The notes below the pieces were generated by a model, which was not told the origin of the DNA, made no database searches, and saw only the letters and a list, made by a program, of their open reading frames with translations. The translations under genes and the position numbers were made by a program. DNA of 46,921 bases from Candidatus Hydrogenedentota bacterium (GTDB lineage Bacteria > Hydrogenedentota > Hydrogenedentia > Hydrogenedentales > SLHB01): assembly GCA_012719295.1 (NCBI GenBank), contig JAAYAQ010000128.1, forward strand, positions 1-46,921, read 5' to 3'. Shown here one piece after another: positions 1,113 through 44,144 of the stretch; position 1 is the stretch's first letter; the number at the start of each line of letters is the position of its first letter.

Positions 1113-1248
1113 TTCCCCAGGCTTCCGGCCATGCGACGTCTCCCCCGAAAACGCCCTTTGCGTTTCTGCCAAACGCTCAGATGGCGTTCGACCGGGGACA
1201 CGCAGTCGCGCCGCGGACGGCGCTTTCGCGCAATGAGACGCGGTGCGG

Positions 1249-1950
1249 CTACGCCCAATTTTCCTGGGCCGTGTCGTACTGGTTCAGGAACGGGAAAATG
1301 CTGTCGACGACGAATCCCTGGGCCGCGCGGAAATTGTCCGCAACGAGGCCCAAACCGTCCCGCATCACGCGCTGCCGGGCGAAAACGCCCTTTACCTCGA
1401 CATAGACCTCATGCTGGCTGTGCCGGAAGGACTCGATGACCACGTTGTAAGAACTGGGTTGTTCCGGGGTTTCGGGGAACACCAGCCGGAGGCCGCCGAC
1501 CGCGATGGGGCGCCTGAAATACGGCCCGAGCCGGTCTTCCTGATGGCAGACATGGTCCAGCAGAAACCGCCGCGCGTCGTCATAGTGGGTCAGGGCGAAC
1601 GTGGTCCGCAACGTTACCGTGTGCGCGGGGAGAAACGGGATATTCAGGGCGTCCATGGCCGGACCCGCAGCCCCTTCGAGCTTCGCGAGGAAGTCCGACA
1701 GCGGGATATCGACCCATTCCTCCGCCAGCATGAAGCGGTCCGGCAGAAAAAGAAACGTCGAGAGCGTTCTGGCCCCGCGCTTGGAGAAAAACCGGAACCG
1801 GCCCGGCAGACTGAAATCCGTGTTGTCGTACGCCGCCTCCCGTGTCTGCGACAGGTCAAAATAGAGCTTCTGGAGCACAGACACCTCGTGCTTGCACGGC
1901 AAATGCAACAGCTCCGCGGAGAAATGGATCGGTCTGTCTTCGGCTTGCAT
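1249..1950 (-). CDS. Conserved-looking hypothetical protein, 233 residues
   Basis: I do not recognise the family. The product is soluble-looking, with no signal peptide or membrane helix, mixed alpha/beta composition and many aromatic residues. It has a Phe-rich stretch 'GRFRFFSKRGARTLSTFLF' in the N-terminal third and ends in 'FLNQYDTAQENWA'. A CYTH-like or polyphosphate/VTC-type fold is conceivable from the alternating basic strands, but no diagnostic ExExK motif is visible, so this is only a thought. The ATG at 1948-1950 has an AGGGGAG site five bases upstream; the GTG two codons earlier overlaps that site and is unlikely. It has its own promoter at 1973-2001. It lies 136 bases upstream of the glycosyltransferase on the same strand and may be co-transcribed with it. 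Confidence 0.72.
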   Translation of the reverse strand: MQAEDRPIHFSAELLHLPCKHEVSVLQKLYFDLSQTREAAYDNTDFSLPGRFRFFSKRGARTLSTFLFLPDRFMLAEEWVDIPLSDFLAKLEGAAGPAMDALNIPFLPAHTVTLRTTFALTHYDDARRFLLDHVCHQEDRLGPYFRRPIAVGGLRLVFPETPEQPSSYNVVIESFRHSQHEVYVEVKGVFARQRVMRDGLGLVADNFRAAQGFVVDSIFPFLNQYDTAQENWA

Positions 1951-37682: not shown

Positions 37683-38668
37683 CGAAAGCCATGATCGGAA
37701 TCGACCTGGGCGGAACCAATGTCAAGACCGCTGTTGTGAGCCGCGAAGGCGAGGTGATGGGAAAGGACTCCCGTCCCACGGACGCCGACCAGGGGCTCGA
37801 GGCCGTGCTCGACAAGATGGTCGAGGGCGTCGACGCCGCCCTGCAGGCCGCGAAGGTCCGGCGGGCGGACGTGCTCGCCGCCGGCATCGGCGCGCCCGGC
37901 CCGATGAATTGGCAGACCGGCGTCGTGTTTGCGCCGCCCAACCTCCCCGGCTGGAAAGACGTTCCCCTGGCCCGGCTCATGCGCGAACGCCTCCAGATCC
38001 CCGTCTATGTCGATAACGACGCCAACGTCGCCTGCTACGGCGAGTTCTGGCTGGGCGTCGGCCGCAATGTCGATTCCATGGTGCTGCTGACCCTGGGCAC
38101 CGGCGTCGGCGGCGGCATTGTCCTTATGGGCCAGCTGTTGCGCGGTCCGGACGGCACGGCGGGCGAAATCGGCCATCTCTGCGTCAAACGCGACGGACGC
38201 CAGTGCAACTGCGGCGCAAAAGGATGCCTCGAACAGTACGCATCCGTCTCGGGCATGCTGAAGACCGCCCGGAAACGCATCGAACAGGGCGGGCTCAATA
38301 CATTCCTGCTCGAGATGTGCGGCGGCGACCTCGATTCTCTGACCGGCAAGATGATCTCCGACGCGGTCGAACAGGGCGATACCTTCGCGAAGTGGGTCAT
38401 GGAAGAGACCGGACGCTGGCTCGGCACCGGCATCGGCAGCATCATCAACCTGCTCAATCCGGAGATGGTGGTGCTCGGCGGCGGGATGATCGGCGCCGGC
38501 GACGTGCTGTTCAATCCGGTGCGCGAGACCGCCCGGGCCCAATCGTTCGACGTGCCCGGCAAACGCGCCGAGATCATTCCCGCGGCGCTCGGCGGCGATG
38601 CCGGCGTCATCGGCGCCGCCGGATGCGCCCTGAACCGCGTGGAACAGGATGCGCGCAGGGGGAAGTGA
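37679..38668 (+). CDS. ROK-family sugar kinase (glucokinase-like)
   Basis: Phosphorylates glucose or a related hexose with ATP. 329 residues. ATP-binding 'GIDLGGTNVKTAVV' (7-20), catalytic Asp in 'VDNDANVA' (D114), 'GTGVGGGIV' (141-149), and the ROK consensus 'GEIGHLCVKRDGRQCNCGAKGCLEQYAS' in pieces (162-188) with His166 and the zinc cysteines C176, C178 and C183. These cysteines favour the bacterial glucokinase/ROK enzyme type rather than a transcription repressor, as there is no DNA-binding domain. The GTG start overlaps the gltX stop; GAGGAG is eight bases upstream. Glucose is the likeliest substrate, but N-acetylmannosamine or fructose kinases share these motifs. Confidence 0.92.
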   Translation: MTKAMIGIDLGGTNVKTAVVSREGEVMGKDSRPTDADQGLEAVLDKMVEGVDAALQAAKVRRADVLAAGIGAPGPMNWQTGVVFAPPNLPGWKDVPLARLMRERLQIPVYVDNDANVACYGEFWLGVGRNVDSMVLLTLGTGVGGGIVLMGQLLRGPDGTAGEIGHLCVKRDGRQCNCGAKGCLEQYASVSGMLKTARKRIEQGGLNTFLLEMCGGDLDSLTGKMISDAVEQGDTFAKWVMEETGRWLGTGIGSIINLLNPEMVVLGGGMIGAGDVLFNPVRETARAQSFDVPGKRAEIIPAALGGDAGVIGAAGCALNRVEQDARRGK

Positions 38669-38675
38669 CACGGCG

Positions 38676-39608
38676 ATGATTCTGACGGTGACCCCCAATC
38701 CGTGTGTTGACAAGACCGTCTTCATCGACACGTTAACGGTCGGCACGTTCATGCGTTCCGGCAAATGCACCTGCATCCCCGGCGGCAAAGGCACGAATGT
38801 CTCCCGCGCCGTCAAGGCCCTCGGGCGCCGCACCAGAGCTCTGGTCATCGTCGGGGGCCATCCCGGTCGCCACGTCGTCGACATGATCGAGCATCAGGAC
38901 GGCGTCGAATGCCTTCCCGCGTGGGTGGCATCGCAAACGCGCACCATCACCACCGTGCTCGAAACGTCCGTGCACCGTCAGACCGCGTTTTTCGAACCTG
39001 GCTCGCGCGTTACGGAGGCCGAATACGCCGGGATCGTCGACCGGTTTCGCGACGCCGTGCACGGCGCTTCCGTGGTCACCTTCAACGGCACCGTATGTGA
39101 CAAAAGCATCAAGACCCTGTACCGCGACCTGATCCGTATCGCGAAAGCCGCCGGCGCCATCACCATTCTCGATTCCCACGGCTCCGAATTCGCCCTCGGG
39201 CTCGAATCCGTCCCCTGCATGGTCAAGCCCAATGTGGCGGAGACCGAAGAACTGCTCGGATGCCCACTTAACACCGACGACGCCAAGTGGGAGGCGGTCG
39301 CGGAGTTCCATGCCCGGGGTGTGGAACTCGTCGCGCTCTCCCTGGGCGAACGCGGCGCGTTCGTGTCACGCGGCGCCGAGCGGTTCCACGTGGTGCCGCC
39401 CCGAATCACCGAAGTCAATCCCGTCGGCAGCGGCGACGTCTTCGTCGCCGGTTTCGCCATCGGTCTCCTCGAACACATGCCTCTGCGCGACATGGCCGTC
39501 CTCGCCTGCGCGGCCGGCGCCGCTAACGCCATGACCTGGGACATCGGCCACTTCAGGAAAGACGAGGTCGATTCCCTGATGCACAAGGTGGAAGTGCGGC
39601 CGGTCTAG
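38676..39608 (+). CDS. PfkB-family 1-phosphofructokinase/tagatose-6-phosphate kinase-like
   Basis: 310 residues in the LacC/FruK/PfkB branch of ribokinases. N-terminus 'ILTVTPNPCVDKTVFI' and 'PGGKGTNVSRAVKALG' (35-50) match the hexose-phosphate kinase subgroup; the C-terminal 'NPVGSGDVFVAGFAIGLL' holds the anion hole and catalytic base Asp254. Likely substrates are fructose-1-phosphate, fructose-6-phosphate or tagatose-6-phosphate. With the kinase before it, a hexose could be taken to the bisphosphate level. The ATG at 38676 begins at the conserved N-terminus; a GGGGGAAG stretch lies about ten bases upstream. It follows the ROK kinase by seven bases. Confidence 0.92.
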   Translation: MILTVTPNPCVDKTVFIDTLTVGTFMRSGKCTCIPGGKGTNVSRAVKALGRRTRALVIVGGHPGRHVVDMIEHQDGVECLPAWVASQTRTITTVLETSVHRQTAFFEPGSRVTEAEYAGIVDRFRDAVHGASVVTFNGTVCDKSIKTLYRDLIRIAKAAGAITILDSHGSEFALGLESVPCMVKPNVAETEELLGCPLNTDDAKWEAVAEFHARGVELVALSLGERGAFVSRGAERFHVVPPRITEVNPVGSGDVFVAGFAIGLLEHMPLRDMAVLACAAGAANAMTWDIGHFRKDEVDSLMHKVEVRPV

Positions 39609-39694: not shown

Positions 39695-39724
39695 CCCCGT
39701 TCTTGTCCGGTGTGGGACAAGGCG
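39695..39724. repeat. 30-base direct repeat, left copy
   Basis: Identical to 40016-40045 and flanking the tandem array on the left. It contains an internal 7-base hairpin (CTTGTCC...GGACAAG) and starts with the CCCCGTTC end of the array hairpin. Confidence 0.8.
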
Positions 39725-39740
39725 CCTTCGCCGGTCGTCC

Positions 39741-40023
39741 GAACGGGTACACGTTGTCGCGCCGGGGACGGCGCTTGGAACATGTCCCCGTTCTTCTGCG
39801 GCGTTTTAAACCTCTGCGATCTCGGAGCTCTCTGTGGCCAATCTCTTCCCCAACCGAACGGGTACACGTTGTCGCGCCGGGGGCGGCGCTTGGAACATGT
39901 CCCCGTTCTTCTCCGGCGTCTTAAACCTCTGCGATCTCGGAGCCCTCTGTGGCCGATCTCTTCCCGGTTCGAACGGGGACACGTTGTCGCGCCGGGGACG
40001 GCGCTTGGAACATGTCCCCGTTC
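39741..40023. repeat. Tandem array, 115-base period, of 53-nt hairpins
   Basis: Three near-identical 53-nt palindromic cores start at 39741, 39856 and 39971, exactly 115 bases apart. Each begins GAACGGG and ends CCCCGTTC and can fold on itself: an 11-bp outer stem (GAACGGGGACA with TGTCCCCGTTC), a few more pairs, a 5-bp inner stem and a GGGGAC/GGGGGC loop. The outer stem is perfect in the third core; the first two carry one T mismatch. Cores 1 and 2 are joined by nearly identical 62-base spacers; core 3 runs into the 30-base flank element instead. The form is that of repetitive extragenic palindromes. Confidence 0.85.
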
Positions 40024-40045
40024 TTGTCCGGTGTGGGACAAGGCG
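40016..40045. repeat. 30-base direct repeat, right copy
   Basis: Second copy of the element at 39695-39724, 321 bases away with no differences. Its first eight bases are also the end of the third hairpin core. Confidence 0.8.
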
Positions 40046-40109
40046 GACCCGCGTGGCCTTTCCGCAGCCCCTGCCTGCAACTCGCGAATACATGTCACGC
40101 ACACATCGG

Positions 40110-40260
40110 ATCCCGTCAGGGACGAAAGAAAACGGGATTAGCGCAGTGTACGAAGAACTGAGTCCCGTAGGGACAGCAGACAATAGCCCACCACTTCAGT
40201 GGTGGGAACCCCCGTTTCCCTGAAACCACGAGTCCCGTAGGGACGGCAGACAATAGCGCC
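40110..40260. repeat. TCCCGTAGGGA-type repeat units with hairpins
   Basis: Two units beginning AGTCCCGTAGGGAC at 40161 and 40231 (70 bases apart) share their first 27-28 bases, up to the end of AGACAATAGC, bar one change. The first unit carries a perfect 8-bp hairpin, CCCACCAC-TTCA-GTGGTGGG (40187-40206). A diverged unit lies before them: ATCCCGT (40110-40116) pairs with ACGGGAT (40132-40138). No coding sequence is seen. Confidence 0.75.
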
Positions 40261-40306
40261 ACCGAAATTCAGAATCCGTGTGCGGGTCGTGTCCCCTGGC
40301 GGGGGT

Positions 40307-40328
40307 GGCCACGCGGGTCCGCGTGGCC
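40307..40328. repeat. 22-base palindrome with a distant inverted copy
   Basis: GGCCACGC and GCGTGGCC flank GGGTCC. The 14 bases at 40307-40320 are also the exact reverse complement of 40045-40058, so the TCCCGTAGGGA units lie inside a pair of inverted repeats about 250 bases apart. Confidence 0.7.
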
Positions 40329-40413: not shown

Positions 40414-43400
40414 TCACCGGATCGAAAGCTCGACGGAGATTTCCTCGCCTTCGCGCACCTCGATGACGTCGGTGACGATGCGGGCGTTGATCAGCGCGTC
40501 TTCGGGCGAGGACGCGTTCGGATCCGCGGCGACGCCCACGACGGTGTAGGTGCCCGGTTCGACATTCTCCATCCGGAAGGTGCCGTCGGGATTCATCTCG
40601 GCCCGGCCCGCGAGCATGCCGAGGTATTCCGAGATTTTTTCCTTCGTCAATGGCCCAATCGTGTCCTCTCCGGGCAACAGCCCGATGTACCCGGCTTCGC
40701 CTTCCTTCAGGCCCGACAGGAACCCCGACACGAACGTGGGGAGGGGGAGCTTGAAGTCCAGCCGGGTCACGCGGCCCGCGGCAATCTGAACCGTCTCCAC
40801 CTGTTGACGGCCTCCGGCTCCGCTGAAATCGTGCAGATACACCGAGGCGCGCACCTCGCCCACCGGCACGCTCTCGATACGGTAGGAACCGTCGCTGCCC
40901 AGTTGTGCGTAGCTCGATGTCCCGGCCTCCCCCGAGGGCAGGTACGCGGAGACTTGCCCGTTGCTCACGGGCTGCCCGCCGACGGTCACAAATCCTTCGA
41001 GCGTACCGGTCTGCACCGGAAGCTCGAAGTTCGCCGTCGTGGTGCGGCCGGTTTCAACAATGATCTGTCGACTTTGACTCAAGTTGCCGCTGCCGGACTG
41101 CACCCAGGTGGCCACCTGCCCGCGGCCGTTCATGACATTCGTGAACACATAATGGCCGGCGGCATCGGTGACCGTGTTGAACTGCTGGTTGCCCCCCTCA
41201 AACATGTACAAGTGAACCCCGACCCCTGCCTTGGGCTGCTTGCCGGCGGTGACGATCCCTTCCACGGAGCCGCCCGCGGGAAGTTCTATCGTGACGCTCG
41301 AGGTGGTTCCCGCGCGCGGCGTGACGGTCGCCTCGCCGCTGCTGTACGCGGGATGGGCCGCGACGAGTTTGATGTTGGCCATCGGGAGGTTGGTCAGGGT
41401 GAACCGGCCCTCGGAGTCCGTGCGCGTTTCGGGCGACCGGTGCTGGTCGTACCGGTCCAGGTATATGGACGCTCCGGCAATCAGCTGGCCCGAAGAGGAG
41501 CGCACCGTGCCCTCCACGCGTGCGCCGGGTTTCATCCGGATCAACAACCCCTCGACGTTCTGTCCCTGCGACAGCGCGCCAAGCATCTGTTCGACCGGCG
41601 CGTACCCATCCGCGCGCACCGCCACCGCCAGATTTCCGCTCTGTTGATGGCGCTCTTCGCGGATGGGCACCGTAAACTCGCCCTCCGGGCTGGTGCACGG
41701 CTGCCAGGCCACGTATTGCTTCGACGGCTCGTTCAGGTAGCCCGGCGCCACGAACGCGACCCCGAAACGCGTCACGGGCTTGCCCGTGGCCGAATCCACC
41801 ACGTTGCCGGACACCTTGCCCTGGGTGGACACCGTGAGACGCAGACCCGAGGCGCCGGCCTGGGCGTCCACGGACTGTAACGTGCGATTCCCGCGCGATA
41901 TCGCGCTCAGCTTGTACGAACCCGGCGCCAGCCCGCTCACCGAAAACGCGCCGTCCAACAGGCTTTTCGTGGTGTAGTTCGTGTTCGCCCCGTCCAGATG
42001 AGCATACACCACTGCGTCCGACAACGGTTTGTTCGCGTCATCCACCACCTGGCCGGAAATGGTCAGGTTTCCTTCAGGACCGGACGCCGGAGGTTTCTTG
42101 CTCCAGGTCAGAACCACACCGTCCACGCGCTGCCCCGCCGCCAATTCCACTTTGGCGGTGGAATCGGGACCACCCTGTTCTCCCTGGGTCATCGCGGTCA
42201 GCGTATACAATCCTGGCGCCAAACCGGCCGAAAGGAACCGGCCCGCTTCGTCTGTGAGGGTATAGCCGGGCTGAAAGGACATGAATCCTTCTCGTCCCAG
42301 CAGCACCCCCATCCCGGCAAGGGGGGCGCCGGAGGGCGTGACCACGGTTCCCCCGATGACGCCGCCTTCCTGTAAGGTCAGCACAATGCCGTCCAGGCCG
42401 CCGGTTGCCGGGACCTGCAACGTATCGGTTGCGGCCGAGGCCTGCGTGCCTTTGGATGCCTGCAGACGGAACTGCTCGCCATTCGCAACGCCCGACACCG
42501 CAAACGCGCCGTCCTGGTCCGCCATGACCTGTGTGCGGTTATAGCCGACGACCGGGACAACCAACACCGTCGCACTGGGGGCGGGCGTTCCATCGGCATG
42601 CTGAACCTGCCCGGAGATCGTGGTGCCCATGAACACCGGCAAGTCGATCCCTTCGAGCACCCCGCCGGCCTTCATGCTGATGAGCGCCTGCTCCTGCTCG
42701 ATATAGGGATTGGTGATGCATCGGTCCTTGATCCGGAGCGCCAGCGAGTGCTCTCCCGGAGGAACTCCGCGCAGTTCATACGCGCCGTTGGTGTCCGTGT
42801 CCACGGAGGCGCCCCAACCCATGAGGTTCGGGCGGAGGATCACCGCGGCGCCGGGGATGCCCGCGCCGGTCTCTTCGTGATAGACGCGCCCGCGGATGAT
42901 GCCGCCCTGCGTTACCCAAAGCTCGATGCCCTGCCTCTGCTCCTCCGTGCCCAGCTTAACGCGGGGCCTCTCCCCGGAATTCGTCCACAGCTCGTCGGCC
43001 GGCTCGATTACGTACTCCCCGGGGCGAAGGCCCGCACACACATACTCGCCCGAATCGTTGGTTGTGGCCTCGAGCGCATCGACCATCGTCGCCCCCTTGA
43101 CCCGCAGCGCGAAACCGCTCAGGGGCTCGCCGGTATCGTCTTGAAGAACCCGCCCCGCCACGCTGCCGCCCATATCCAGAGTGACCGTGACGCCGGCCGC
43201 GGGAAGTTGGAGGAGACCGGTGACGTGCGACGCGTAGCCTTCGGCTTTCACCGCCACGAGGGCCTGGTTCACCGGCACCCGTTCGAATTCAAATCCGCCC
43301 TGGTCCCCACTCAGCGCCGCCAAAGGCAAGGCCTGCGCGATCTCCTCTGGATTTCGCAAGCCGCTCTGCTGGCGCATCATTCCCATGGGCGGAAGGCACA

Positions 43401-44010
43401 GCACAGTAACCTCCGCTCCGGCGACGAATTCCCCCTGCGCGTTCGTCACCCGGCCCGCAAGGCTGTGCGCCGGTCGGAGTTGAAGCGTCAGGTCGTTGAC
43501 CCCGGGCCGGAAAGGCCCGGTTTGCGCATAGAACGCCGCGCCCAAATCTCCGCGGGTGGCGAGCAGGCTATACGAGCCAAACGGGAGCCCGTCGGCGGCA
43601 AATGTGCCGTCCGGCCCCGTGGTCACGGTCCGGGGCGCGTCCGAAACCGGCGTGTTCTGCTCCGAGGCGGTTCGTTGGATGATGACCTCCACGCCCGGCG
43701 CCGGTTCCAGGGCTTCATCCAGAACCAGCCCCGAAAGCGAGCCGCCGCCCGTGGCTCCGCGCGTGGCCGCCGGTCTGTCCACGGCGACACGGGCGCCCAC
43801 CGCCCCCGCGTCCAGCCGGCGGGCCGTCTCGTCAGGCCCGGCGGAGGGCGCCGGCGGTGGCAGTTCCGGAGATTCCCGGACCGTCTCGTCCCGCACCGTT
43901 TCCGGTCCCGAGGGCGTTTCGCTCTCCGGGCGGAACAGCAGCCACCAGACCGCGGCCACCGCCGCCACCATCAGGATGATCGTTACGACAAAGCGGACGT
44001 TCTGTTTCAT
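40414..44010 (-). CDS. Giant membrane-anchored protein of repeated carboxypeptidase-regulatory-like domains
   Basis: 1198 residues. A transmembrane anchor near the N-terminus (about 7-26) is followed by an acidic Pro/Thr/Ser linker to about 75, then roughly eleven beta-sandwich units of about 85-100 residues. Each opens with a form of 'G.V.G.V.d..g.P..ga.V' ('GSLSGLVLDE', 'GSVAGRVLQD', 'GIIRGRVYHE', 'LTISGQVVDD', 'GKVSGNVVDS') and often holds 'T.ttd.dG.F.l.nlp.G.Y.l', the carboxypeptidase-regulatory-like (CarboxypepD_reg, PF13620-like) pattern. No catalytic domain is seen. The chain would lie outside the cytoplasmic membrane and suits adhesion, scaffolding or spacing. The ATG at 44010 starts the anchor; a run of G's lies six bases before it. 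Paralogous to the next gene. Confidence 0.85.
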   Translation of the reverse strand: MKQNVRFVVTIILMVAAVAAVWWLLFRPESETPSGPETVRDETVRESPELPPPAPSAGPDETARRLDAGAVGARVAVDRPAATRGATGGGSLSGLVLDEALEPAPGVEVIIQRTASEQNTPVSDAPRTVTTGPDGTFAADGLPFGSYSLLATRGDLGAAFYAQTGPFRPGVNDLTLQLRPAHSLAGRVTNAQGEFVAGAEVTVLCLPPMGMMRQQSGLRNPEEIAQALPLAALSGDQGGFEFERVPVNQALVAVKAEGYASHVTGLLQLPAAGVTVTLDMGGSVAGRVLQDDTGEPLSGFALRVKGATMVDALEATTNDSGEYVCAGLRPGEYVIEPADELWTNSGERPRVKLGTEEQRQGIELWVTQGGIIRGRVYHEETGAGIPGAAVILRPNLMGWGASVDTDTNGAYELRGVPPGEHSLALRIKDRCITNPYIEQEQALISMKAGGVLEGIDLPVFMGTTISGQVQHADGTPAPSATVLVVPVVGYNRTQVMADQDGAFAVSGVANGEQFRLQASKGTQASAATDTLQVPATGGLDGIVLTLQEGGVIGGTVVTPSGAPLAGMGVLLGREGFMSFQPGYTLTDEAGRFLSAGLAPGLYTLTAMTQGEQGGPDSTAKVELAAGQRVDGVVLTWSKKPPASGPEGNLTISGQVVDDANKPLSDAVVYAHLDGANTNYTTKSLLDGAFSVSGLAPGSYKLSAISRGNRTLQSVDAQAGASGLRLTVSTQGKVSGNVVDSATGKPVTRFGVAFVAPGYLNEPSKQYVAWQPCTSPEGEFTVPIREERHQQSGNLAVAVRADGYAPVEQMLGALSQGQNVEGLLIRMKPGARVEGTVRSSSGQLIAGASIYLDRYDQHRSPETRTDSEGRFTLTNLPMANIKLVAAHPAYSSGEATVTPRAGTTSSVTIELPAGGSVEGIVTAGKQPKAGVGVHLYMFEGGNQQFNTVTDAAGHYVFTNVMNGRGQVATWVQSGSGNLSQSRQIIVETGRTTTANFELPVQTGTLEGFVTVGGQPVSNGQVSAYLPSGEAGTSSYAQLGSDGSYRIESVPVGEVRASVYLHDFSGAGGRQQVETVQIAAGRVTRLDFKLPLPTFVSGFLSGLKEGEAGYIGLLPGEDTIGPLTKEKISEYLGMLAGRAEMNPDGTFRMENVEPGTYTVVGVAADPNASSPEDALINARIVTDVIEVREGEEISVELSIR

Positions 44011-44144
44011 GACAAGCCCCCCCGGCCGGAACACTTCCCGCCACCTGACAAATGACGGTTTCCGCGGGGCACGATCAACGCAGATGCGCCCAACCCGAGC
44101 GCCCGGCCCCATCAGACGCCTCTGCACCGCCCTGCCGGGCCGCC

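Follow-up and report, generated by a model that had tools for sequence, protein, structure and literature searches.

The 53-nt imperfect palindrome ("core") that is repeated three times near the end of the window (the whole 46,921-nt stretch of DNA analysed here) is probably, at roughly 0.65 by our estimate, the conserved hairpin by which a non-autonomous, dispersed mobile repeat of the TIRYT/IS200 kind is recognised. Six observations support this: the core belongs to a dispersed family, its copies have an intergenic bias, its fold is conserved together with an internal mismatch, neighbouring copies stand in head-to-tail order, one site differs in the presence of the core between sister species, and analogues are present in two relatives.

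Anatomy of the array

The array contains three cores of 53 nt each, with start-to-start distances of 115 and 115 nt, and two 62-nt linkers that agree with each other at 54 of 62 positions; Tandem Repeats Finder reports it as 2.5 copies of a 115-nt period (score 509), and the three cores are not identical in sequence. The exact 30-mer CCCCGTTCTTGTCCGGTGTGGGACAAGGCG is found at both array ends (39695-39724 and 40016-40045), and the array sits between two convergent genes (Table 1). An earlier note on this DNA had described the three cores at 115-nt intervals, the near-identical linkers and the terminal 30-mers, and all of these were correct when re-measured. It had also proposed that the array expanded from a core-plus-flank ancestor, of which the tandem expansion stands and the origin of the ends does not. 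The 30-mer consists of the 3' end of a core (8 bases) followed by the first 22 bases of another palindromic module, and since this core-module junction is seen again at other places in the same genome, the left 30-mer reads as the 3' stub of a fourth core followed by module B; the idea of a local duplication was rejected because of this recurrent junction.

Table 1. Features of the array and its two flanking genes, in window coordinates (G000 is the window's genome)
Feature	Position	Strand	Basis
Upstream neighbour, PfkB-family sugar kinase, points at the array	38649..39608	+	Pfam PF00294, E 8e-38
Putative remnant of a fourth core, last 8 nt CCCCGTTC, opens the left 30-mer	39695..39702	+	Junction repeated elsewhere in G000
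Module B TTGTCCGGTGTGGGACAAGGCGCCTTCGCCGGTCGTCC, separate palindromic repeat that often adjoins cores	39703..39740	+	Aligned flanks, 64 copies
Core 1, 53-nt nested hairpin	39741..39793	+	
Linker ("tail") 1, 62 nt, member of the G000 tail family	39794..39855	+	
Core 2	39856..39908	+	
Linker ("tail") 2, 62 nt, 54/62 identical to linker 1	39909..39970	+	
Core 3, identical to the query used genome-wide	39971..40023	+	Folds, pair counts, position frequencies
Start of a second, truncated module B; the right 30-mer consists of the last 8 nt of core 3 and this piece	40024..40045	+	
Downstream neighbour, large protein with carboxypeptidase-regulatory-like repeats, points at the array	40414..44127	-	Pfam PF13620, E 1e-96

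Dispersal of the core in the window's genome

The window is contig 463 of the 641 contigs of a Candidatus Hydrogenedentes assembly (G000) that is 94% complete. Blast of fetched loci gives at least 64 core-like places in this genome, a few of which are degenerate, further divergent copies were found beside tails, and the arm pattern ACRTGTCCCCGTT has 58 + 56 = 114 occurrences genome-wide, against 0 for a reversed-pattern control; the copy numbers derived from these searches are lower bounds, since the palindromes seem to break short-read assemblies. No core copies were found in the viral contigs and plasmids searched. By a simple codon model 56 of the 64 copies lie outside predicted genes, and several of the other eight are at contig edges or uncertain gene starts; for comparison, genes of at least 250 aa occupy 83.5% of the window. 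The 56 extragenic copies lie between convergent genes (10, three of them the window's own cores), codirectional genes (14) and divergent genes (5), or at contig edges (27). The earlier note had proposed a dispersed, extragenic and lineage-specific palindromic family, and had named a core that occurs only here, or copies lying randomly inside genes, as what would speak against it; with at least 60 places in G000 and 56 of 64 copies avoiding predicted genes, neither is the case and the proposal holds.

Where two neighbouring cores are less than 600 nt apart, they have the same direction in 14 of 14 cases in G000 and in 7 of 7 in its sister species (G001), a total of 21 of 21 head-to-tail and none inverted, a statistic that is weakened by kinship among the copies. 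Because core-linker-core units with a period of about 112-115 nt were found at further loci, the window array is, as judged from sequence, one case of a recurring dimer and not a private expansion.

At G001 loci L147-L186, N scaffolding gaps lie inside the hairpin loops, and for 27 of the 64 G000 cores a neighbouring gene is missing at the contig end. Core-type repeats thus help to explain the poor assembly of these genomes.

Fold of the core and its conservation

In core 3 the outer arm pairs over 11 bp; next come a C.A mismatch (positions 12/42), 3 further bp and an asymmetric internal loop, and the hairpin is closed by a 6-bp inner stem with a 4-nt loop. On the opposite strand the mismatch is a G.T pair. 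On both strands the core folds far more strongly than shuffled sequences, with DNA z values of -6.3 and -7.5 (0/200 shuffles). The C.A mismatch is kept in 37 of 38 full-length G000 copies, in 24 of 27 full-length G001 copies and in 16/16 rows of a cross-genus alignment. In this alignment 88% of cells are paired, versus at most 53% in slid controls, and 7 pairs have changed on both sides, covariation that kinship among copies also weakens. Between genera GGGGACACGTAGTCGC ... GCTTGGAACATGTCCCC is constant, and covariation is seen in the outermost letters of the arms and in part of the inner stem. The outer arm GGGGACAC is present in nearly all copies, also in other genera, and the inner stem is conserved along with the outer arms. 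About half of the G000 and G001 copies, and most of those from other genera, have an internal GTAG ahead of the inner stem; in about half GTTG stands in its place.

Flanks and tails

The three bases that precede a core are mostly TYC and the base that follows is T (TYC-core-T). To the right, the flanks sort into a few modules, and to the left they are often other palindromes. Tail A, as we call it, adjoins 35 of 64 G000 cores and 5 of 45 G001 cores on the right; for tail B the counts are 24 of 45 in G001 and 0 of 64 in G000. Tail A without a core is rare, and two such cases resemble deletions between GGGG runs. No target duplication is evident in the aligned flanks, whose boundaries are not fixed by clean empty sites. 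To the right of tail A (at L190, L200, L208 and others) there is often another GC-rich hairpin of the form GCCGGGCGCC..GGCCCGGC, and we suggest that tail A and this hairpin make up a longer composite unit.

Presence of the core in related genomes

The sister species G001, of the same genus, carries the same core, with 139 exact arms; none was found in a further congener (G002), and divergent versions are present in other genera of the family (G012, G016 and G017). Syntenic genes of G000 and G001 have about 91% nucleotide identity. The core at G000 C193:7007-7057 is missing at G001 C122 ~136768-136837, where both flanks are about 90-91% identical; this is the one site at which both flanks could be matched and the core differs, and its junction is not base-perfect. 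Among 17 syntenic loci about half are without a core in the G001 sequence read, some of which is short. At the window's own locus, homology downstream of the G001 pfkB orthologue gives way to other repeat sequence about 70 nt before core 1 would be reached, and the array was not found in the 327 nt that remain before the contig end, so the array is likely absent there; an orthologue of the window locus was sought in G002 and none was found. Shared ancestry and gene conversion could also account for similar copies.

Y1 transposase genes

A PF01797 profile search had no match to Y1_Tnp in G000 and found four Y1 genes in G001, and Y1 genes are present in 46 of 60 relatives. The IS200-like RAYT gene flanked by the core that the earlier note proposed to look for did not turn up in either genome, since G000 gave no Y1 gene and the four of G001 adjoin other palindromes; both genomes are MAGs fragmented at these very repeats, so the missing gene is weak evidence, and still a gap. 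The closest case is one G001 Y1 gene that has a degraded core-like stretch some 190 nt upstream. The small IS200-like Y1 genes of G001 (L127, L128 and L129) were rejected as mobilisers of the core because other palindromes, of the GGACCCC/GGGGTCC and CAACCCC types and the CCCAGGGC type, lie beside them, and the fourth (L130) was set aside since it lies among long GCCGACGTCC palindromes. Among the other genera, G016, G012 and G017 were dropped as a source of the mobiliser, since their Y1 loci showed no core-type flank and G017 gave no Y1 match. Since the G001 genes at L127 2330-2960, L129 340-960 and L130 2120-2880 each border a different palindromic family (GGACCCC/CAACCCC, CCCAGGGC and GCCGACGTCC), several repeat-transposase pairs seem to coexist in that lineage.

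Within the phylum, several of the longer Y1 genes carry inverted ends of the (G)GGGACAG type. Two such genes, in the same-order relatives G034 and G047, lie beside palindromes of like design to the core. The G034 gene (204 aa from the first ATG, with NHVH, WQ and Y..NP motifs; PF01797 50.5 bits) is flanked on either side, in direct orientation, by one copy of a 56-nt nested palindrome, which has a single mismatch, T.T, at a place comparable to that of the core's C.A, and blast finds at least 50 matches to this palindrome in G034 and 22 in G026. The G047 gene (NHVH, YVELNP; PF01797 48.1 bits) has same-orientation palindromes on both sides, and the same genome has a three-copy head-to-tail palindrome array with a period of 145 nt, by analogy a close parallel to the window array. 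Both proteins score under the cut-off of NF047646.

Comparison with known repeat-transposase systems

TIRYT-type Y1 genes are flanked by terminal inverted repeats (TIRs) instead of GTAG REPs (PMC3733652); many of the TIRs share GGGGWSAS, and some are self-complementary and form dispersed families (Di Nocera 2013, PMC3733652). TIRYTs have been equated with TnpAY1 subclass 2.1, which is listed without REP-like sequences nearby (PMC6006769), and whether they build dispersed repeat families is a question raised in PMC3733652. The core resembles these TIRs in that its arm GGGGACAC fits the GGGGWSAS consensus, in being self-complementary, moderately abundant and both dispersed and clustered, and in that palindromes of its design flank the G034 and G047 Y1 genes. 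It differs from them in that no flanking Y1 gene was found in G000 or G001 and that its copies are exclusively head-to-tail, with species-specific passenger linkers. With GTAG REPs, BIMEs and REPINs and their RAYTs the core shares the form of a short extragenic imperfect palindrome, the mosaic clusters and the proposed movement in trans, but it is a nested double stem of 53 nt, versus 20-40 nt, without a terminal GTAG and without inverted pairs. The ends of IS200/IS605 elements are imperfect hairpins that are recognised on one strand and have the same orientation at both ends; core-linker-core differs from such an element in that it contains no gene and its linker is only about 60 nt long. Class 3 TnpAY1-associated structures, known from Planctomycetes and Acidobacteria, are likewise atypical secondary structures of high copy number beside Y1 genes, but have a CnGA foot where the core has a TYC flank before GAAC (PMC6006769).

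TIRYT-type terminal repeats are therefore a nearer match to the core than REP/BIME proper. Membership of the TIRYT TIR family is not established, because a Y1 gene flanked by the core was sought and not found, and we would class the core as a new family, a variant of the TIR-palindrome kind that is notable for its exclusive head-to-tail order and species-specific linkers. The "REP-like" of the earlier note thus fits in the broad sense and not in the sense of REP/BIME proper, which the missing terminal GTAG, the uniform head-to-tail order and the lack of a core-flanked Y1 gene all oppose.

A possible mode of movement

By analogy, the element would work like a single-strand end of IS200/TIRYT type, placed on either side of a short non-coding passenger with the same orientation; in this reading we infer the transposase, its choice of strand and its cut site, as well as passenger transport and local slippage. 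The element would fold into its nested hairpin in single-stranded DNA, for example on the lagging-strand template, and a Y1 (HUH) transposase acting in trans would recognise one strand of the hairpin, telling it from the other by the conserved C.A mismatch, which is G.T in the complement, and by the asymmetry of the internal loop. The enzyme would cut beside the hairpin foot, and the core, or a core-linker-core unit with its end cores in direct orientation, would be moved to other intergenic sites, often adjoining other palindromes. Head-to-tail copies could then be gained or lost through slippage or unequal recombination, which would produce the 115-nt array and leave behind remnants like the left 30-mer, and any effect of the cores on transcription would be a side effect.

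A bolder version, which we hold doubtful, is that the hairpin by itself acts as a single-strand transposon end and takes adjacent DNA along in head-to-tail hairpin-linker-hairpin cassettes. If true, this would explain why the same 53-nt core occurs with different linkers in two sister species, and the enzyme would act in trans or would have been lost since. TIRYT transposases are widespread, and the Hydrogenedentes offer a compact test set, with two Y1 genes that have matching nested palindromes and a pair of sister species with the same core and different passengers. The direct orientation and the conserved strand-asymmetric mismatch lead to a testable prediction on strand choice.

Alternative explanations

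A conventional REP/BIME family, that is, GTAG-tagged palindromes moved by a classical RAYT, would account for an extragenic palindrome with more than 60 copies in a mosaic with other palindromic modules, for the GTAG before the inner stem in about half of the G000 and G001 copies and most of those from other genera, and for the frequency of Y1 genes among the relatives (46/60). It is unlikely, since the GTAG is internal and replaced by GTTG in about half of the copies, the outer foot has no tag, none of the 21 neighbouring pairs is inverted, and no Y1 gene is flanked by the core, those at L127, L128 and L129 of G001 bordering other palindromes. The conserved outer arms also resemble short inverted repeats, as expected of a MITE-like element with 15-bp terminal inverted repeats and a DDE transposase. 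That is quite improbable: the inner stem is conserved too, the flanks have no evident target duplication, and the seemingly variable interior in G001 consists of assembly N-gaps inside the hairpin, which also explain the short G001 spacings, so the idea of a variable interior was dropped.

We consider it very improbable that the core is mainly a transcription-end or RNA-stability element under selection (a terminator, RNase barrier or structured RNA). The RNA fold is strong and G.U-compatible on the minus strand, and the window array does lie between convergent genes, but the contexts of the copies are mixed (above), copies differ in presence between the sister species, a terminator scan flags no site overlapping the cores and no Rfam family is above threshold for the core. 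Same-orientation hairpins with short stretches between them also recall integron attC sites or a CRISPR-like array. The attC boxes have the consensus RYYYAAC/GTTRRRY, which the core ends do not fit, and with linkers that are gene-free and near-identical within the array, and copies scattered over the genome, an origin of either type is scarcely credible.

Acido-Lenti-1 matches beside the array

Rfam family RF01687 (Acido-Lenti-1, listed as an sRNA) matches beside the array at window positions 40161-40206 (-) and 40231-40264 (-), with 55.4 bits, and a perfect 16-nt inverted repeat, GCGGACCCGCGTGGCC / GGCCACGCGGGTCCGC, at 40043-40058 and 40307-40322 brackets this stretch. The family matches several further G000 loci, including L226 at 1185-1232 (-) and 1793-1840 (+). 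In G016 a broken IS200-like Y1 gene lies between two sub-threshold matches in inverted orientation (25.8 and 26.9 bits, E ~1e-3), and because of this arrangement RF01687 may really be a transposase-associated palindrome.
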